Shown here piece by piece: positions 15,815 through 25,322 of a stretch of DNA of 64,000 nt. The notes under the pieces were generated by a model. That model searched no databases. It was not told the DNA's origin and saw nothing but the letters and a program-made list of their open reading frames with translations. The stretch comes from a bacterium (GTDB taxonomy: Bacteria > Zhuqueibacterota > QNDG01 > JAGLOF01). The stretch lies in contig JAFGRY010000033.1 in assembly GCA_016934955.1 (NCBI GenBank), forward strand, positions 1-64,000. The letters run 5' to 3'. The translations under genes and the position numbers were made by a program. Positions within the stretch are counted from its first letter, which is position 1, and each line of letters opens with the position of its first letter.

Positions 15815-15869
15815 AATAAGAAATTCGCGAAAAATCCAGTATTCATTTACCCCAGAAAGGATGCGCCCT

Positions 15870-18800
15870 ATGAATCCCGAAACCCGTTTTCAGCCCCTGC
15901 TTCCGCTGCTCTTCATCAGCCTCGTTTCCTCTCTGCAGGCAACAGCCCGTACGGCGGACACAACCATCGCGCCCCTTTTCAGCCATCTCGAATACCGCTG
16001 CGCGGGACCCACCAGAGGCGGCCGCGTCACGGCCGTGGCCGGCACTGCCGCGGAACCGGGCACCTTCTACATGGGAGCCACCGGGGGCGGCGTCTGGAAA
16101 ACCACCGACTACGGAACTTCCTGGAACAATGTATCGGACGGCTATTTCGACACCGGATCCATCGGCGCCATCAGCGTCGCGCCAAGCGATCCCCGGATCG
16201 TCTGGGCGGGCACCGGTTCGGACGGACTCCGCAGCAACGTCATTTACGGGCGGGGCGTCTACCGTTCCGGTGACGGAGGCGATTCGTGGACATTCCGGGG
16301 ACTGCGGGACGCCGGCCAGATCGGGGCCGTTCTCATCCATCCGGACAATCCCGATATCGTTTTCATCGCCGCGATCGGCAACGCTTTCGCGCCCTCGCCT
16401 GCCCGGGGCGTCTATCGCACGAACGACAGCGGGGCGACCTGGGAACGGGTGCTCTTCATCTCGGAGCGGACCGGCGCCGTCGATCTCGAGTTCGCCCCCG
16501 ACGATCCGGAGACGATATACGCCTCCATGTGGGAGGCACAGCGGAAACCCTGGACCATTATCAGCGGCGGATACGAAGGCGGCCTTCACCGCAGCACTGA
16601 CGGCGGCGACAGCTGGCAGAAGCTCACCGCCGGACTGCCGCCCGGGCTCATCGGCAAAAGCGATCTGGCCGTGTCGGCAGCCGATCCGGACCTTCTCTAC
16701 GCCCTGATCGAAGCCCCGGAAGGCCTCGGCGGCGTCTATCTCTCCCGGGACCGCGGGTCCACGTTCAGCCTTGTCTCGACCTATGATCCCCTGCTTGACC
16801 GTCCTTTTTACTACTGCAACATCGACGCGGACCCGACCGATGCCCGCCGTCTCTATGTCAACGCCACCGGATTCTATCGCTCGGATGACGGCGGCAGAAG
16901 CTGGGAACGGCGCTCCACTCCCCACGGAGACAATCATGATATGTGGATCAACCCCGACGACCCCCGTCTTTTCATCCAGTCGAACGACGGCGGCGCCAAT
17001 GTGACCAGGGACGGCGGAGAGACCTGGTCCAGCCAGGACAACCAGCCCACCGCCGAGCTCTACCAGGTGAATCTCGACGACCGCTATCCCTACCGCCTCT
17101 ACGCGGGCCAGCAGGACAACAGCACTATCGTCGTTCCCGGCCGGCCCCTTTCCGGATCCGTCACCGGCCCATCCGGATACTGGCGTTCGGTGGGAGGATG
17201 CGAAACCGGCCCCGCGGTGCCGAAGCCGGGAAATCCCGATATCGTTTACGCCGCCTGCAAAGGCAGATTCGGTGTGTACAACGTCACCACCGGCCAGGAA
17301 AAGCAGTATTACGTGGGCGCGGCCGATATGTATGGACACGATCCCGCTGATCTGCGGTACCGCTTTCAGCGGGTCTCGCCCATTATCGTCTCTCCCCACA
17401 ATCCCGATGTTGTCTATCACGCATCCCAGTACCTGCACCGGACCGACGATGACGGCGTCACCTGGAAGACTATATCCTCCGACCTGACCGCCTTCACTCC
17501 GGAAACCCAGGGAATTTCCGGTGGCCCAATCACCCGGGACATCACCGGAGAAGAGTTCTACAGCACCATCTACGCGATTGCGGAATCCCCTCTGCAGGAG
17601 GGACTGATCTGGACAGGATCGAACGACGGCCCGGTATACGTTACCGGGGACGGAGGGAAACAGTGGCGCAACGTCACCCCTTCCGCTCTGCCTCCCGGAG
17701 GACGGGTCCAGACCATCGAGCCGTCTCCCCACCGGCCCGGCACGGCCTACATCGCTGTCTACCGCTATCTGCTGGGTGACTTCAGCCCCTATCTCTACCG
17801 GACCGACAATTACGGCAGGGACTGGACGCTTCTCACCGACGGCGCCAACGGCATTCCCGGGGATGTGCCCTGCCGGGTGATCCGTGAAGATCCGAAACGG
17901 CCGGGGCTGCTCTACGCGGGTACCGAATCAGGCATGTTCGTCTCCTTTGACAACGGCCGCTTCTGGCACCCGCTTCAGCTCAATCTGCCGGCCGTCCCGG
18001 TCACCGACATCAAGCTGTTCAGGAACGACCTGGTGATCTCGACCATGGGGCGCTCCTTCTGGATTCTCAACGATATCGCCTCCCTCGAACAGCTCGATCC
18101 GGCCATGGACCGGTCCGTACCGCGCCTCTTCGAGCCGTCACAGGCGTTCCGGCGCCGTTACTCCAGTTATCGCCGTTCCCGGGAGGTGCCTTCATATCCG
18201 GAAGCAGGGGTCAACATCGATTACTACCTGCCCCCCGGTACGAAAGAGACATGTACCCTGGAGATCAGAGACATGTCGGGCGCTGTCATTCGCCGCTTCA
18301 CCAGCGCTTCCGAAGCGCGGGAGCCTGCCCTTCCCTCGCTGGATACCGACGGGGCGGCCCTGGCCGCCGCGGCCGTCGGCGGCATTCTGACCGTGCAGCC
18401 GGGCATGCAGCGGTTCACCTGGGATATGCGTCACGCCGGGCCCTATTCTCCGCAAAGCAGGCGCGGCCGCAGCGGTCCGATGGTGACACCCGGCATATAC
18501 CGGGCGGTCCTTTCGGCGGGAGACTGGCGAGACGAGACACGCTTCACCATCGCCATCGATCCCCCTGTGCAGCGCTCAGGCGTCACTCGGGCCCATCTGA
18601 AAGAACAGGAGGATCTCAGTCTTAAAATCAGGGATCTCATGAGTGAGGCGCAGCTGCTCAATGCTCATATCGGCGGGATGCTGGAGGCGTTCAGCAACAC
18701 AGCTGCCCTTTCCGGCAGGGAAATACAAACAAAAACGATGCTGGAAACGGTGGACAGTCTGCTCAACACCGGGGAAGGCCCCTATCCGCAGCCGATGCTG

Positions 18801-18962
18801 ATCAGTCAGATATCCTATCTTTACAGTATGCTCGACCGGGCCGATCAGCAGCCGGGAAAGGATGCCCGGGAACGGTACATGGAGCTGCGGGATCGATGCC
18901 GGCGCATACGATCCGAGGTTCTGCGGCTGCAGCAAAGCGAACACATGATGGAAACCCCCTGA
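15870..18962 (+). CDS. Exported sortilin/VPS10-like beta-propeller protein with BNR (Asp-box) repeats
   Basis: 1030 residues from ATG 15870, with GAAAGG nine bases upstream, the same arrangement as the M28-M19 gene. A signal peptide is followed by two large propellers with many Asp-box turns: 'SGDGGDSWTFRG', 'TNDSGATWERV', 'STDGGDSWQKL', 'SDDGGRSWERR', 'TRDGGETWSSQD', 'TDNYGRDWTLL'. After about residue 760 comes an FlgD-like segment ('TCTLEIRDMSGAVIRRF...RFTWDMRH'), and the end is helical. Close families are exported 'glycosyl hydrolase / sortilin' proteins abundant in FCB and acidobacterial genomes; most have no demonstrated enzyme activity. I see no sialidase FRIP motif, so a binding or scaffold role is as likely as hydrolysis. 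Confidence 0.82.
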   Translation: MNPETRFQPLLPLLFISLVSSLQATARTADTTIAPLFSHLEYRCAGPTRGGRVTAVAGTAAEPGTFYMGATGGGVWKTTDYGTSWNNVSDGYFDTGSIGAISVAPSDPRIVWAGTGSDGLRSNVIYGRGVYRSGDGGDSWTFRGLRDAGQIGAVLIHPDNPDIVFIAAIGNAFAPSPARGVYRTNDSGATWERVLFISERTGAVDLEFAPDDPETIYASMWEAQRKPWTIISGGYEGGLHRSTDGGDSWQKLTAGLPPGLIGKSDLAVSAADPDLLYALIEAPEGLGGVYLSRDRGSTFSLVSTYDPLLDRPFYYCNIDADPTDARRLYVNATGFYRSDDGGRSWERRSTPHGDNHDMWINPDDPRLFIQSNDGGANVTRDGGETWSSQDNQPTAELYQVNLDDRYPYRLYAGQQDNSTIVVPGRPLSGSVTGPSGYWRSVGGCETGPAVPKPGNPDIVYAACKGRFGVYNVTTGQEKQYYVGAADMYGHDPADLRYRFQRVSPIIVSPHNPDVVYHASQYLHRTDDDGVTWKTISSDLTAFTPETQGISGGPITRDITGEEFYSTIYAIAESPLQEGLIWTGSNDGPVYVTGDGGKQWRNVTPSALPPGGRVQTIEPSPHRPGTAYIAVYRYLLGDFSPYLYRTDNYGRDWTLLTDGANGIPGDVPCRVIREDPKRPGLLYAGTESGMFVSFDNGRFWHPLQLNLPAVPVTDIKLFRNDLVISTMGRSFWILNDIASLEQLDPAMDRSVPRLFEPSQAFRRRYSSYRRSREVPSYPEAGVNIDYYLPPGTKETCTLEIRDMSGAVIRRFTSASEAREPALPSLDTDGAALAAAAVGGILTVQPGMQRFTWDMRHAGPYSPQSRRGRSGPMVTPGIYRAVLSAGDWRDETRFTIAIDPPVQRSGVTRAHLKEQEDLSLKIRDLMSEAQLLNAHIGGMLEAFSNTAALSGREIQTKTMLETVDSLLNTGEGPYPQPMLISQISYLYSMLDRADQQPGKDARERYMELRDRCRRIRSEVLRLQQSEHMMETP

Positions 18963-19014: not shown

Positions 19015-20331
19015 TTACATGCCGCCGCTGAGCAAAATGGAGTTGTCGGTGTAGAAGATTCCCGCCATGCAGGCGGTCATGAGACATGCCAGGGTTGCCG
19101 CCAGAAGCGCCCGGGGGCCGATCACGGAAATATCCTTTGTTCTCCCCGGAATCAGGGCCGCGAGACCGCCCGTGAATATGGCAAGGGACGCCACATGGGC
19201 AAATCCGCAGAGGGCATAGGTGCAGATGACCGCTGAACGTGTCTGTTCCAGGGAGCCGCTTTTTATCAGGGCGGCCAGATCCTGATAGGCGGCGATCTCG
19301 GTCACCACCGCCCGCTCTCCGATGATCCGGCTTATCTCGACGGCATCGGCCGGGGGTATGCCGAGGATGAGCGTGAAGGGGTAGAACAGCAGTCCCAGCA
19401 GCCCCTTCAGACTCCAGTCGAATTCGACATGGAACAGCCGGTGAATCCCTTCTCCGGCAGTGGCTAAAATGAGATCGGCAAGGGCAACCAGGCCGACCAC
19501 CGCGATGAGCAGAGCGGCGATGCCCGCGATCAGCTTCACACCCGAGTTGGCGCCGGCAATGATCGCGCTCAGCAGATTGTCCTCCCGTTCATAATGGGGC
19601 GTCACATGCAGTCCCAGTGTTTCCGGCGAACCGGTTTCCGGAAGAATGATCTTCGCCATCACCAGGGCCGCGGGCGCGGAGAGCAGTGATGCTGACATGA
19701 GATGCCCGGCGATAGAGGGGAATACGTCGGAAAGCATGGCCACATACATCGCCAGTATATTTGATGCGACCGTGGCCATGCCCGCAGTCAGCACCGTCAT
19801 GAGCTCTGACCGGGTCATGCGCTCGAGATGCGGTTTTACCGTCAGCGTCGATTCGATACCGACGAAAATATTGGACGAGGCACAGAGGGATTCGGCGCCG
19901 CTGACCCGCATCAGCCGGGTGAACACCCACGCGAATCCCCTGATAATTTTCGGAATGATGCCGGTGTGATACAGAATGGCGACCAGCGCAGCGAAGAAGA
20001 CCACTCCCGCAAGGCCCTGAAAGGCAAGGATGAATCCCAGCGAGGTTTCACCGTTTTCGGCCACGGCGCCGGGCGGCAGCGCCAGCCGTCCGAACACGAA
20101 GCGGCTGCCCTCGGACGCGGTCCCCAGCAGCGTGATCACCAGGTCGTTCAGAAAAAGAAACAGTTTCGCTCCGGCGGGAACGGTAAAAATAAAGAAAGCG
20201 ATCAGCAGCTGCAGACCGGTTCCCCAGATGATGACCCGCCAGTTGACGATTCGTTTATTCGCGGAGAAAAGCCAGGCCGTCCCGAGCAGCAGGATCATGC
20301 CGGCCATACTGACGAGATTGTAAAGAGTCAT
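19015..20331 (-). CDS. nupC: Concentrative nucleoside transporter (CNT/NupC family)
   Basis: A 438-residue polytopic protein of normal CNT length. It shows the family's core: 'GFILAFQGLAGVVFFAALVAILYH' in the N-terminal half, 'GAESLCASSNIFVGIESTLTVKPHL' (the EST nucleoside-binding motif), 'MTVLTAGMATVASNILAMY', and 'GLLFYPFTLILGIPPADA' plus 'TEIAAYQDL' in the second half. Family knowledge: it couples nucleoside uptake to a sodium or proton gradient in the inner membrane. It stands alone between convergent and divergent neighbours; salvage of extracellular nucleosides is the likely role. Confidence 0.92.
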   Translation of the reverse strand: MTLYNLVSMAGMILLLGTAWLFSANKRIVNWRVIIWGTGLQLLIAFFIFTVPAGAKLFLFLNDLVITLLGTASEGSRFVFGRLALPPGAVAENGETSLGFILAFQGLAGVVFFAALVAILYHTGIIPKIIRGFAWVFTRLMRVSGAESLCASSNIFVGIESTLTVKPHLERMTRSELMTVLTAGMATVASNILAMYVAMLSDVFPSIAGHLMSASLLSAPAALVMAKIILPETGSPETLGLHVTPHYEREDNLLSAIIAGANSGVKLIAGIAALLIAVVGLVALADLILATAGEGIHRLFHVEFDWSLKGLLGLLFYPFTLILGIPPADAVEISRIIGERAVVTEIAAYQDLAALIKSGSLEQTRSAVICTYALCGFAHVASLAIFTGGLAALIPGRTKDISVIGPRALLAATLACLMTACMAGIFYTDNSILLSGGM

Positions 20332-20418
20332 AACGGCACCATGCGGAAAAATGATTGATCGACCAAACCAAAATAATGAACGGCGCCGCCAACAACAAGA
20401 ACAATTTTAGTTTTCACT

Positions 20419-20447
20419 TGGTATCATCTTCATAAATGTGTATAATA
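20419..20447 (+). promoter_or_regulatory. Promoter of the M14 peptidase pair
   Basis: TTGGTA (20419-20424), 17-base spacer and a perfect TATAAT (20442-20447). The inferred start near 20454 leaves a 42-base leader with GAAAGGA before the ATG at 20496. Confidence 0.65.
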
Positions 20448-20495: not shown

Positions 20496-22211
20496 ATGAA
20501 GAAACTCCTGCTCATCACTGTCGCGGGCCTATTTCTCTGCAGCGGTGTTACCCGGGGATCGGTCCCTGAAAATGCTCCCGATTACCGGGAGATGACTCGC
20601 AGACTCAAACAGCTCGTAAAGACGCATGAGAACTACGCCACCCTCGAATCCATCGGCAAAACCGGCGAGGGACGGGACATCTGGCTCGTCAGGATCAGCG
20701 ATCCCGGCACCGGAGATCCCGGCGGGAAAAGCGCCCTTCTGGTCTGTTCCACCATAAACGCGGACTATCTCGTGGGAGGCACGGCGATTATTGCCCTGAC
20801 GGAACGGATCCTTGCCCGAGCGGTCACCGACACGGCGATCGCAGGCATGCTGAAGAAGCACACGCTCTATCTCCTGCCCCGGCTCAATCCCGACGGTTCC
20901 GATTATCTCATCAACGGCGCCGTCGCCCCATACTCATCAAACCGCGTACCCTTCGATGACGATCATGACGGCCTCGTCGATGAGGACGGGCCGGAAGATC
21001 TGGATAACAACGGGCTCATTACGGTCATGAGAGTGAAACGCTGGGATGCCACCCATGTCGCCACGTCCGGGGATAAGCGCCTTCTCAGGGAAGCCGACAC
21101 CCAAAACGGCGAAACGCCCGTCTACCGGCTTTACAGCGAAGGCATCGACAATGACGGGGACGGAACGATCAATGAAGACGGACCGGGCGGTGTCTGCATA
21201 GACCGGAACTTTCCCCACGCCTACCCCTACTATCAGCCCGGAGCCGGTCCGTATATGACCAGCGAGCCCGAAACCAGGGCGATCATCGATTTTCTTTCGA
21301 CCCGCAAACATGTCGCCGCGGTCCTGGTCTACGCTCCCTTCGACAATATCATTCAGCCCCCGGAACCGGAACGGAAACGGCAGGCTGAAACACCCGCAAA
21401 TGACATCCGCCGCTTCATGCGGGCACGCAGCGCGCCTGCAGGGCTGGATCCCGCCGACCTGTCCGTGTATACGAAAATCAGTTCCCTCTACAAGGACCTC
21501 GTTTACGCCCGTCCTCCGGCGCAGGCGGTTCCCGAAAAGCCCGCAGGATCATTGACCCAGTGGGCCTATTACCAGTATGGGGTCGTATCCCTCTCGTCAC
21601 CATTCTGGCAGATCCCCTCTCCCGCGGAAGAAGACAAAGGGCCACGGGGGAAAAAGGAAAAGAACGGCGGCAGTGAAGAGACCCTGCTGCGGTGGATAGA
21701 GTCCGCACATATTACGAACGGCTTCGTCCCCTGGAAACCGTATACCCACCCCGAGCTCGGAGAGGTCGAGATAGGCGGCTTCAATCCGCTGGTCACCTGG
21801 AATCCCCCCCAGCTTCCCGACAGCCTTATAGACAAACAGCTCGGATTTATTGTCCGGGTCACTGACCTTTTCCCGGAACTGGTCCTCGAAACCTTCAGCG
21901 TCACCCGGGAGGCGGACCGCGTCTACCGTATCGAAGCGGTGGTTAAAAACAGGGGATTTTTCCCGACGGTACTGGCCCAGGGAGCCACGGCGGGCAGCGT
22001 CACTCCCACGAGAGCGACCCTTACCGGTACGGACTTCACCCTGCTCGAGGGACAGATGCATCAGTTTCTCCCGCCGCTGAGCGGTTCCGGCGGCGCCGTA
22101 AAAGCGGCGTGGCTGATCCACGCGGGCGCGGGGACAAAAATGACACTCACCGTCGTTTCCGAAAAAGCGGGAACGATCCGGCACCCCTTTACCCTTAGCG
22201 CACAGGAGTAA
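20496..22211 (+). CDS. M14-family carboxypeptidase homologue lacking all catalytic residues (pseudopeptidase)
   Basis: 571 residues, signal peptide to about residue 22. It aligns along its whole length with the next gene, an intact M14 peptidase: 'SIGKTGEGRDIWLVRISDP', 'LYLLPRLNPDGSDY', 'GIDNDGDGTINEDG', 'CIDRNFPHAYPYY'. At the zinc site the neighbour's HGNE reads NADY (Asn88, Tyr91). The third ligand His293 of the neighbour is Ala280 here, and the catalytic Glu365 is Pro369. The Asp-rich calcium-like loops are kept, as is the substrate-side 'NPDG' region. So the fold seems preserved while chemistry is lost. Three bases separate it from the intact gene. A role in binding, or as partner of the active enzyme, is inference. 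Confidence 0.85.
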   Translation: MKKLLLITVAGLFLCSGVTRGSVPENAPDYREMTRRLKQLVKTHENYATLESIGKTGEGRDIWLVRISDPGTGDPGGKSALLVCSTINADYLVGGTAIIALTERILARAVTDTAIAGMLKKHTLYLLPRLNPDGSDYLINGAVAPYSSNRVPFDDDHDGLVDEDGPEDLDNNGLITVMRVKRWDATHVATSGDKRLLREADTQNGETPVYRLYSEGIDNDGDGTINEDGPGGVCIDRNFPHAYPYYQPGAGPYMTSEPETRAIIDFLSTRKHVAAVLVYAPFDNIIQPPEPERKRQAETPANDIRRFMRARSAPAGLDPADLSVYTKISSLYKDLVYARPPAQAVPEKPAGSLTQWAYYQYGVVSLSSPFWQIPSPAEEDKGPRGKKEKNGGSEETLLRWIESAHITNGFVPWKPYTHPELGEVEIGGFNPLVTWNPPQLPDSLIDKQLGFIVRVTDLFPELVLETFSVTREADRVYRIEAVVKNRGFFPTVLAQGATAGSVTPTRATLTGTDFTLLEGQMHQFLPPLSGSGGAVKAAWLIHAGAGTKMTLTVVSEKAGTIRHPFTLSAQE

Positions 22212-22214
22212 ATC

Positions 22215-23957
22215 ATGAAGACATTTTTCAGCTGGAGCATCCCCCTCGTCCTTGCTGCTGTGCTGCTTTCGGCCGGCGCAGCCGCCCAGGAAAAACCGAT
22301 CGTGTCGCTTCCCTACAACCACTACTACAGTCACGCCGAGATCGGTTCTCTTCTCAGGGATTTCGAAAAGAAATACGACAGATTTCTCTCTCTGCAATCC
22401 ATCGGGAAAAGCACCCTCGGCCGCGAGATATGGGTGATGACCGTGAACAATCCCGATACAGGACCCGAAGATCAGAAGGCCGCCATGTATATCGATGCCA
22501 ACATTCACGGCAACGAAGTGCAGGGCGCTGAAGCCGTCATCTACACCCTCGATTACCTCATGACCAACTACGGACATATCGACCGCGTCACCGACCTTGT
22601 CGACACCTATGTGTTTTATCTGCTGCCAATGGTAAATCCTGACGGACGCATGCACTGGTTCGACACCAGCCGTTTCAGCGGCGGCGGACGCAGCGGCATG
22701 CAGCCCACCGACGATGACAACGACGGTCTTTTCGATGAGGACGGATACGACGATATCGATGGTGACGGATATATTCTGCGCATGCGTAAAAAAGTCGAAA
22801 ACGGCGACTATATCATCAGTCCCGAGGATCCGCGGCTCATGGAACGGGCAGCTCCCGGCCAGACCGGCGACTACATCATGCTCGGCACCGAGGGTATCGA
22901 CAATGACGGCGACGGCCGCATCAACGAAGACGGCGCCGGCGGCTACGACATGAACCGCAACTGGCCCGCGGACTGGCAGCCAGATTATATACAGAGTGGC
23001 GCTGGGACGAGACCGTTCTCCTATCCGGAAACAGAGGCGATCGGAACGTTCTTTCTTTCCCATCCCAATATCGCGGGGGTTCAGTCATATCACAATTCCG
23101 GCGGAATGATCCTGCGCGGTCCCGGCTCGAAAGACGAAGAGCCCTACTCGAGATCCGATCTTCAGGTGTACGATTATATCGGCCGGGAAGGGGAAAAAAT
23201 CCTCCCGTTCTACCGCTACTACGTTATTTACGAAGACCTGTACACGGTTCACGGCGGCTTCATCAACTGGACCGCCGAGGGACTGGGTATTTTTTCCTTC
23301 TCGAATGAACTCTGGAGCTCACGCCAGTATTACAATAGCGCGGTTCCGGAAGAAGACAGGTCGTCCCGGGGCAACTCGGGACAGAAGGAACGGCTTTTCT
23401 TTGACGACCATGTTGAAATGGGAAGGCAGTTCATCGAATGGAAGCCCGCGGTTCATCCCCAGTACGGCAACATCGAGCTCGGCGGCTGGGCACGGGAAAC
23501 GGGACGGGTGCCGCCCATGTTTATGCTCGAGGAGCTCTGTCACCGGAACACCATGTTCACCCTGTTCCACGCCGAACAGATGCCGGTCGTCGCCATCGAT
23601 ACAATCTCCGTCACATCGCTCGGCCGCGGGAGCTACCGTGTCTGGGTCACCATCAGAAACAGCAAGGTGATCCCCACGATCAGCGACATCGCCGCGAAAC
23701 GACACCTAGTAACTCCGGATATTCTTTCGCTTGAGGGGAAAAGCAGCACCGTGACCGCGGCCGGATTCGTGAGAGACATCTACACCGGCAGAACCGATCC
23801 GGTTGAAAACAGATACGAGCGGGTCGCCATACCCGGAGGGATACCCGGGCAGAGTGCAGTGACGGTGCAGTTCATCGTCTCCGGCGCAGGACGCTGCACC
23901 GCAGCATTTGTCAGCTCTAAAGGAGGGAAGACGGTAAAGACCTTCATGCTGCAGTAG
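22215..23957 (+). CDS. Exported M14-family zinc carboxypeptidase
   Basis: 580 residues with a signal peptide (to about residue 24). The zinc ligands are His98 and Glu101 in 'ANIHGNEVQGAE' and His293 in 'QSYHNSGG'; the likely general base is Glu365 in 'FSFSNELW'. 'LLPMVNPDGR' and 'DMNRNWPADW' carry the conserved substrate-binding Arg/Asn region. Two Asp-rich, EF-hand-like loops are inserted (near residues 170-190 and 235-250). A C-terminal beta domain of about 130 residues follows. Normal function is release of C-terminal residues from peptides outside the inner membrane. The gene is co-transcribed with the preceding catalytically dead paralogue. Confidence 0.9.
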   Translation: MKTFFSWSIPLVLAAVLLSAGAAAQEKPIVSLPYNHYYSHAEIGSLLRDFEKKYDRFLSLQSIGKSTLGREIWVMTVNNPDTGPEDQKAAMYIDANIHGNEVQGAEAVIYTLDYLMTNYGHIDRVTDLVDTYVFYLLPMVNPDGRMHWFDTSRFSGGGRSGMQPTDDDNDGLFDEDGYDDIDGDGYILRMRKKVENGDYIISPEDPRLMERAAPGQTGDYIMLGTEGIDNDGDGRINEDGAGGYDMNRNWPADWQPDYIQSGAGTRPFSYPETEAIGTFFLSHPNIAGVQSYHNSGGMILRGPGSKDEEPYSRSDLQVYDYIGREGEKILPFYRYYVIYEDLYTVHGGFINWTAEGLGIFSFSNELWSSRQYYNSAVPEEDRSSRGNSGQKERLFFDDHVEMGRQFIEWKPAVHPQYGNIELGGWARETGRVPPMFMLEELCHRNTMFTLFHAEQMPVVAIDTISVTSLGRGSYRVWVTIRNSKVIPTISDIAAKRHLVTPDILSLEGKSSTVTAAGFVRDIYTGRTDPVENRYERVAIPGGIPGQSAVTVQFIVSGAGRCTAAFVSSKGGKTVKTFMLQ

Positions 23958-23979
23958 CGCTCACGGGCATGAGGAGGCC

Positions 23980-24021
23980 CCCCCGCCCTGAACGAGGAGG
24001 TCAGGCGTTCAGGGCAGGGGG
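23980..24021. terminator. Strong hairpin between the M14 pair and ftsZ
   Basis: A 15-bp GC-rich stem (CCCCCGCCCTGAACG with a complement carrying one bulged A) around an 11-base loop. It lies in the gap between convergent transcripts and could end both the peptidase operon and the long dcw operon. A clear T tract is lacking. Confidence 0.6.
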
Positions 24022-24038
24022 TAGACAGGAGGCACCGT

Positions 24039-25322
24039 CTATTCCTTGTTCTTTCTCAGGTACGCGGGAACATCGAGTTCACTGGCCGGAAAAGAACCCA
24101 GCCCGGAGCCCTTGCCGTTCCCGTTCCCATTCCCGTTTCCATTCCCGTTCCCGCTGCCTGCGAACGACATGAAGCCGTCTCCGCCGAACACTTCACTGAA
24201 CGCCTGTTCCAGCGGTTCGTTCTGCAGCTGGTTGAGCACCGGGACTGGATCTCTGTCAAAATCTGCACCGGTGAATATCTTTTTCCCGTTACCGGAAGCC
24301 CGCTTCGCTGTCTGTTTAACGCCGTCATGGCAGAATCCCGTGGCGATCACCGTCACCCGCACTTCCTCTTTCATGGACGGATCGATGACCGCTCCGAGAA
24401 TGATATTCGCATCGGCGCCCGCGACTTCAAAGACCACCGTCGCCGATTCGTTCACATCGTCAAGGCTCATATCGCTTCCGCCGGTGATATTGACCAGCAC
24501 GCCCTGAGCGCCCGTTATGGTCACATCCTCGATCATGGGACTGGTGATGGCGGCTTCGGCCGCTTTTTTGCCCCGGTTGTCACCGGACGCCACACCCGAT
24601 CCCATGAGCGCGTCGCCACTCTGACTCATGACCGTCTGCACATCGGCAAAGTCGAGGTTGATGAGACCCGGCACATTGATCACGTCCGAGATTCCCTTGG
24701 TTGCATGCAGCAGAATCTCGTCAGCGACCCGAAACGCCTTTTCCAGGGGAGTGTTTTTCGGCACCAGGGAGATCAGTTTCTGATTGGGCACCGTGATCAG
24801 GGTATCGACATTCTCCTTCAGATCCCGTATGCCGAGTTCGGCGCGCTGACTGCGTTTGATTCCCTCGAAGAGAAACGGTCGTGTCACGATGCCGACCGTG
24901 AGCGCGCCGATATCCCTGGCGATTTCCGCAACCACCGGCGCCGCTCCCGTCCCGGTGCCGCCCCCCATTCCGCAGGTGATGAACACCATGTCTGAGTCGG
25001 AGAGTACCTCGATGACCGCATCCTTGTTCTCCTCCACGGCCCGCCTCCCTACTTCAGGGATCCCTCCCGCTCCCAACCCCCTGGTAAGACTTTTACCAAG
25101 CTGGATTCTCGATGCGGCTTTGTTCAATTCAAGCGCCTGCAGGTCGGTATTCATGGTAATGAAATCGACCCCGGTCAGATTGTCTTCGATCATACGGTTG
25201 ACGGCGTTTCCCCCGGCGCCCCCGATGCCGACTACCCGTATTTTCGCGACCTCTCTTCGTTCTTCGACGAAATCGAAAAACATAGTACCTCCGGAATTAC
25301 CGCTGTGATTACCCATTGTCAT
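24039..25322 (-). CDS. ftsZ: Cell division GTPase FtsZ
   Basis: 427 residues. The tubulin signature GGGTGTGA is in 'CGMGGGTGTGAAPVVAE', 'VVGIGGAGGNAVN' forms the nucleotide-binding T1 region, and the T7 loop is NLDFADV. The C-terminal peptide 'ELDVPAYLRK' should bind FtsA. Before it the linker is a run of Gly-Asn dipeptides coded by an imperfect hexanucleotide repeat near 24112-24155. FtsZ polymerises into the Z ring at midcell. It is the last gene of the dcw operon, 19 bases after ftsA. AAGGAGG precedes the ATG at 25322; an ATG at 25316 is equally possible. Confidence 0.98.
   Translation of the reverse strand: MTMGNHSGNSGGTMFFDFVEERREVAKIRVVGIGGAGGNAVNRMIEDNLTGVDFITMNTDLQALELNKAASRIQLGKSLTRGLGAGGIPEVGRRAVEENKDAVIEVLSDSDMVFITCGMGGGTGTGAAPVVAEIARDIGALTVGIVTRPFLFEGIKRSQRAELGIRDLKENVDTLITVPNQKLISLVPKNTPLEKAFRVADEILLHATKGISDVINVPGLINLDFADVQTVMSQSGDALMGSGVASGDNRGKKAAEAAITSPMIEDVTITGAQGVLVNITGGSDMSLDDVNESATVVFEVAGADANIILGAVIDPSMKEEVRVTVIATGFCHDGVKQTAKRASGNGKKIFTGADFDRDPVPVLNQLQNEPLEQAFSEVFGGDGFMSFAGSGNGNGNGNGNGNGKGSGLGSFPASELDVPAYLRKNKE

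Follow-up and report, generated by a model that had tools for sequence, protein, structure and literature searches.

The M16B pairs AlbF/AlbE, TTHA1264/1265 and SPH2681/2682, like the mitochondrial MPP, consist of one catalytic subunit and one subunit lacking the zinc motif, which together form an active heterodimer (PMC12731061), and the widespread bacterial metalloprotease TldD/TldE is also a pair of active and inactive paralogues in which proteolysis needs both (PMC5810440). Dead paralogues that form a complex with the working enzyme and activate it are described for the trypanosomal AdoMetDC prozyme (PMC5201418) and for deoxyhypusine synthase (PMC3663545), which, unlike the genes treated here, are eukaryotic and non-proteolytic. 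Within the M14 family itself, the pseudopeptidases carboxypeptidase D domain III, AEBP1/ACLP, CPXM1/2 and Ecm14 are known from eukaryotes. The first of them is a tandem neighbor of active domains of the same chain, and a role in protein binding, or in presenting substrates to those domains, has been put forward for it (PMC11266112). In the available portion of this review of metallopeptidase pseudoenzymes we found no bacterial M14 pseudopeptidase. Here we describe two adjacent M14 genes on the forward strand of a 64,000-nucleotide stretch of DNA from a bacterium of the Zhuqueibacterota (contig JAFGRY010000033.1, positions 1 to 64,000; hereafter the window). The first, D (571 amino acids, 20496..22211), is, judged by its residues, a catalytically dead M14 pseudopeptidase, and the second, A (580 amino acids, 22215..23957), is an intact M14 metallocarboxypeptidase. 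We consider it probable that D is a maintained pseudopeptidase and that the two proteins together make up a secreted or periplasmic M14 carboxypeptidase of two subunits, D being the non-catalytic one. A search of the open-licence literature turned up no earlier description of an active/inactive M14 pair in bacteria, which is not proof of novelty.

The D reading frame runs uninterrupted from the ATG at 20496 to the TAA at 22209-22211 and is separated from A by the three bases ATC alone (22212-22214), both as the initial annotation of this locus had stated. The two proteins share approximately 30% identity, and both match the Pfam profile PF00246 (D with 78.1 bits, 1.2e-21; A with 152.3 bits, 2.8e-44; gathering cut-off 21.6), M14 being the sole family above cut-off for either of them in the Pfam scan, with no match to the families of M16B or TldD/TldE. 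Since Pfam places both proteins in one family, zinc carboxypeptidase, and no NCBIfam model reaches its cut-off for either, the difference between them is hidden from routine annotation. That difference lies in the active site. In the alignment, the zinc ligands His98, Glu101 and His293 of A become Asn88, Tyr91 and Ala280 in D, and the general base Glu365 becomes Pro369 (21600..21602), the position of Glu270 in carboxypeptidase A. The former HxxE motif reads N88-A-D-Y91 (20757..20768), the equivalents of Arg127 and Tyr248 (R159 and Y343 in A) are also lost, and the Asn144 equivalent is D236. Just past the former third ligand (the His196 equivalent) stands a D-specific motif, D283-N284-I285 (21333..21350, including A280), whose central position is Asn in 93/97 D proteins vs Gly in 86/86 A proteins. 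The initial annotation held that every catalytic position had changed; this was right for the three ligands and the general base, but the equivalent of Arg145, which in carboxypeptidase A binds the substrate carboxylate, is kept as R237 (21204..21206). A thus has the HxxE motif, the distal His and the Glu270 of an active M14 peptidase and D has none of them, while the profile match, the confident structural model described below and the loss of the catalytic residues together are what is expected of an M14 pseudopeptidase.

Because the same pattern recurs in 151 non-redundant homologues of D, it goes beyond chance. None of the 151 has Glu at the Glu270 position, and all three zinc ligands are gone from 146 of them; of the other five, three retain a single ligand and two retain two. 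These last two (L185 and L232) branch most deeply within the D clade, which fits the stepwise loss expected from an active ancestor. The columns around the ligands and Glu270 align consistently, and intact ligands elsewhere in D were not seen. What tends to persist is the basic residue at position 145, which is Arg in 92 and Lys in 31 of the proteins (123/151). Most relatives have Glu or Asp at the first position of the former HxxE site, followed at the last by His, Asp or other residues, so that ExxH or DxxH occurs in 62/151. Some members might have a new metal site there, but since the exchange is found in only part of the family and is missing from the window copy, this would not be the common function. 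In a single tree D and A form two clades, with a support of 0.999 for A and of 0.77 for D, the latter rising to 0.991 with broader sampling, and by these sequences D is an ancient pseudo-M14 clade.

The partner retains everything that D has lost. The residues H98, E101, R159, N247, R248, H293, Y343 and E365 of A correspond to His69, Glu72, Arg127, Asn144, Arg145, His196, Tyr248 and Glu270, which full-length copies of the A clade keep nearly without exception, and the S1' pocket residue is hydrophobic, I350 in the window and Leu, Ile or Val in A proteins generally, as in carboxypeptidases A and T. In a fold search of the PDB, the predicted A half matched carboxypeptidase T (Z 38.5, 302 residues, root-mean-square deviation 2.5). 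These residues suggest that A removes C-terminal residues with a preference for hydrophobic side chains. In the fold of its catalytic half, its HxxE...H and Arg127/Asn144/Arg145/Tyr248/Glu270 sets and its hydrophobic S1' pocket, A therefore resembles the carboxypeptidase T/A type of M14 (PF00246), but it differs from this type in two inserted invariant acidic loops, in its C-terminal beta domains and in nearly always having a partner, and D differs in lacking the whole catalytic apparatus save, often, Arg145. D shares with the eukaryotic M14 pseudopeptidases the M14 fold and the loss of catalytic residues (PMC11266112); however, those proteins are eukaryotic and belong to regulatory or digestive branches, whereas the partner of D is encoded by a separate adjacent bacterial gene. 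The likeness to the M16B pairs lies in having two paralogous subunits, neighboring genes in bacteria and one subunit without the zinc motif (PMC12731061). Their fold and family are nevertheless unrelated, M16B being a clam-shell endopeptidase and A a predicted exo-acting carboxypeptidase, and TldD/TldE differs from D-A in its unrelated fold and its metal site.

The active site has been erased in D alone, while the strictest constraint in both proteins falls on acidic and glycine loop residues (97 D and 86 A proteins compared). The first calcium-type loop of D, D154-D156-D158..E163-D164..D168 (20955..20999), has D154 in 96/97 and its other residues in 97/97 D proteins, with all of them present in 86/86 A proteins, and the second, E215-G-x-D218-x-D220-x-D222 ... 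E227-D228 (21138..21179), is complete in 97/97 D and 86/86 A proteins. Both D and A may therefore bind calcium through these loops. The N-termini of both window proteins look like Sec signal peptides, the putative one of D covering residues 1 to approximately 25, and a simple hydropathy test recognized a Sec-type hydrophobic start in 90/98 D and 80/83 A proteins, which suggests that both are exported. The retention of signal peptide and calcium-like loops in D, already noticed in the initial annotation, thus extends to the family. TldD/TldE, for its part, is cytoplasmic and not exported.

The pairing of D with A is near-obligate. After D-type loci were collapsed at 95% identity, 153 could be scored for a neighboring A, which directly follows D on the same strand within 1 kb in 138 and within 4 kb in three more, giving the dead/active arrangement in 141 non-redundant loci; linked genes for paralogous active and inactive subunits, as in M16B and TldD/E, are thus found here too. 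In eight of the 153 the sequence ends before A could follow, and of the four that lack A, two are members of the second pair type described below, one lies at a contig end and one, L122, is a real exception. The dependence looks mutual, for among inspected Planctomycetota genes that had seemed to be A without D, those of the A clade proved to adjoin a very divergent D or a contig end, and the remaining ones make up a separate clade of solo paralogues with different pocket residues; an A-clade gene without visible D was also seen in an incomplete genome (L126). A third gene conserved beside D-A was not found, the neighbor clusters being mostly shadow open reading frames of the pair or lineage-local genes, so that the link appears to be that of D and A themselves and not of a larger operon. 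At several loci, e.g., L035, L049 and L054, a candidate start codon of A shares bases with the stop codon of D, suggesting translational coupling. Read-through of the D stop codon was considered and rejected as biology, because the frame relation of A to D over the loci (30:26:36) has no surplus of in-frame pairs and the in-frame order in the window is then due to chance.

The dead-then-active pair is present in at least eight bacterial phyla. D homologues occur in the window's own phylum, including one genome with the same locus as L033 that is labelled candidate division KSB1, and, in a second, independent genome collection, in Bacteroidetes, Rhodothermia, Ignavibacteriales, Candidatus Aminicenantes, Vicinamibacterales, Planctomycetota/Phycisphaerae, Gemmatimonadota, Caldithrix and single metagenome-assembled genomes of other groups. 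Among sampled genomes, a profile search gave D-type matches in approximately 32/82 of the window's phylum, 22/198 of Bacteroidota and approximately 30/199 of Planctomycetota, the phylum of L082.

D is under purifying selection and clearly constrained. Nei-Gojobori counts for close pairs (synonymous divergence, dS, approximately 1.2 or less) gave ratios of nonsynonymous to synonymous substitution (dN/dS) between 0.07 and 0.28 for D, compared with 0.04-0.26 for A. Distances among D proteins average 1.5 times those among A proteins, and the rate of the window copy lies only slightly above the mean (rank 72 of 86), so that there is no sign of its having been abandoned. Among more than 150 loci, two broken D genes were noticed, L052:5920-7704 with one in-frame stop and L233:216-1864 with a frameshift, and either could be an assembly error. 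Relaxed selection or frequent frameshifts, named in the initial annotation as what would speak against a maintained pseudoenzyme, are therefore not what the family displays, and the proposal of maintenance gains support from both the dN/dS values and the near-obligate pairing. Since the pair recurs over phyla with both genes under selection, D is probably a subunit of a working enzyme and not a decaying copy.

For a structural view, D and A of the window were folded by AlphaFold2 as one chain in which the D stop was read as Gly, a folding device that carries no claim about translation. With an alignment of 66 rows (31 paired and 35 A-only), this second run gave a predicted template modelling score (pTM) of 0.87 and a mean predicted local distance difference test score (pLDDT) of 87.6, with a disordered linker of 33 residues (model residues 544-576) and pLDDT mostly of 85-97 in the D half. 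Since the two halves are of equal size, a pTM this high implies that their mutual placement is predicted with confidence, and D and A are accordingly predicted to pack together, their two M14 domains, both with calcium-type loops, making up a heterodimer. D-only rows were placed by MAFFT on the A half, and that alignment was not used for folding. As the fold-search list for the fused model was taken up by the A half, the fold of D rests on its sequence profile and on the model confidence. Alignments of zymogen structures to the fused model begin at model residues 278-283 (D approximately 303-308), which pair with prodomains, a faint hint that D might lie near the funnel of A, in a segment with pLDDT below 65 and few aligned residues.

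The evolutionary trees point in the same direction as the model. Across 86 loci, the distances among D proteins track those among their A partners (r=0.86; the highest value in 500 shuffles was 0.09), although part of this correlation must come from common descent, as shared vertical inheritance can mimic it, and the deepest branches of the two clades belong to the same loci. Besides this caveat, several observations weigh against a two-subunit enzyme. A first AlphaFold2 run with 25 paired rows gave a pTM of 0.50 and two well-formed domains whose mutual arrangement was left undefined, so that the relative placement of D and A depended on the alignment; moreover, pTM is not an interface score, and the cognate window pair is the sole chain that was folded. 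Natural single-chain D-A fusions were searched for among open reading frames and none was found. At L123, L124 and L125, which belong to a single family within the phylum of the window, an opposite-strand HtpG/Hsp90-like gene lies between D and A, both of which remain close. Finally, the exception mentioned above (L122:2731-4662) is an additional D gene that has no A up to 2.7 kb away, and its genome carries a normal pair besides.

If D and A do form one enzyme, cleavage would be done by A, which would take C-terminal residues with a hydrophobic preference, and D, which keeps the fold and usually an Arg or Lys at position 145 able to grip a peptide carboxylate, would most likely present or select peptide substrates for A, or else stabilize A or gate its active-site funnel, possibly through the retained Arg145 pocket and in the manner of the inactive subunits of M16B and TldD/TldE. 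This evidence is consistent with the initial annotation, which suggested a substrate-binding partner or a regulator of the active peptidase, the physical interaction being an AlphaFold2 prediction only. A wider reading, which we regard as tentative and somewhat short of an even chance, is that of a so far unrecognized M14 carboxypeptidase, ancient and spread over several phyla, that is an obligate heterodimer and whose zinc-free subunit, sitting over or beside the catalytic funnel, decides what is cut. Within the calcium-loop branch of M14, the dead/active arrangement would then have arisen at least twice, with the gene order reversed on the second occasion.

Other roles for D have to be set against that of a subunit. 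It could be co-expressed with A and yet have a role of its own, binding or scavenging peptides outside the cell without a stable complex, since the Arg or Lys so often kept at position 145 could still bind a C-terminal carboxylate, both proteins are exported by the look of their N-termini and the genes lie in variable contexts; the near-perfect one-to-one linkage, the co-divergence and the confident AlphaFold2 placement all favor a direct partner instead, and we regard this explanation as unlikely. A direct partner might also be an inhibitor, a zymogen-like cap or a folding chaperone of A, made first like a detached prodomain. The constant first place of D in the main family, its export and constraint and the weak pairing of prodomains with residues around 303-308 would all suit such a role, to which we nevertheless give only a small probability, given that the segment concerned is the poorly scored and sparsely aligned one, that prodomain homology was not seen in D and that in the second pair type it is the active gene that leads.

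It is quite improbable that D is a re-tooled metalloprotein or enzyme whose working motif is the ExxH or DxxH that has taken the place of HxxE. The 62 proteins with Glu or Asp at position 69 and His at 72, and the conserved D/N-Asn-Leu motif just past the former third ligand, would give such a site some substance, but the swap is not conserved, being Asn/Tyr in the window, which lacks even ExxH, and ExxD, KxxH or others elsewhere; furthermore, the third ligand is Gly or Ser in 136/151 D proteins, and the general base is gone in all of them. That D is a decaying duplicate hitch-hiking before A can hardly be entertained: the roughly 1.5-fold faster divergence of D and the slightly faster than average window copy are what decay would produce, yet dN/dS far below 1, the invariant calcium-type loops and an ancient multi-phylum clade with almost no broken copies are not. 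The maintained, non-catalytic subunit remains the reading that we prefer. Were it confirmed, the principle of active and inactive subunits known from M16B and TldD/E would extend to M14, a secreted two-component carboxypeptidase would be present in many genomes of Bacteroidota, Planctomycetota, KSB1, Acidobacteriota and other groups, and the active half, if purified alone, may be misassayed. The partly degraded D copies (L185 and L232) and the solo active paralogue clade would then be natural material for work on how enzymes turn into obligate partners.

A second type of M14 pair, with the active gene first, was found in three related genomes (L120:2010-6165, L121:2077-6256 and L131:1116-5099). 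Its dead member has R/Q-x-x-E at the HxxE site, Gln in place of the His and Ser in place of the Glu. As it falls outside the D clade in the first two trees, its inactivation appears to be separate, though a third and smaller tree groups it with D as sister clade (support 0.94). In the chromosome of Candidatus Aminicenantes bin34, a tandem M14 pair in which both members have all catalytic ligands (L230:2-3545) is possibly a both-active relative of this second type, its kinship to the three loci being poorly supported; the same genome has at least three D-A pairs. Solo paralogues were also observed. One, in Bacteroidota (L159, L160, L162 and L164), has Asp aligned at His196 with HxxE and Glu270 kept, and possibly an altered metal site. 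The solo active clade of Planctomycetota (L237, L239-L241, L243 and L251), which has no D, carries Lys or Arg at Tyr248 and Asp at S1', which suggests a different, basic substrate preference.

In the window, the genes on both sides of D-A, a nucleoside transporter (19015-20331, opposite strand) and ftsZ, named from its translation, face the other way, which makes D-A look like a unit of just two genes. What the initial annotation called a good promoter is indeed present in the correct position 5' of the pair, as a sigma-70-like TTGGTA-17-TATAAT (20418..20446, + strand) with 10/12 consensus matches, but 1.6 sites of this quality are expected by chance in the scanned stretch and it does not rise above that count. 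Both ATGs are preceded by a Shine-Dalgarno-like purine-rich run, that of A (AGGAG) overlapping the end of the D gene. On the 3' side, a T-tract terminator was searched for after A and not found, and a hairpin between A and the convergent ftsZ (23980..24021, + strand; RNA fold of -40.7 kcal/mol and z of -2.2 for 23955-24045) is a possible transcription end of the pair. Further upstream, beyond the nucleoside transporter gene and on the same strand as the pair, a large Sortilin/Vps10-BNR-type protein is encoded at 15855-18962.

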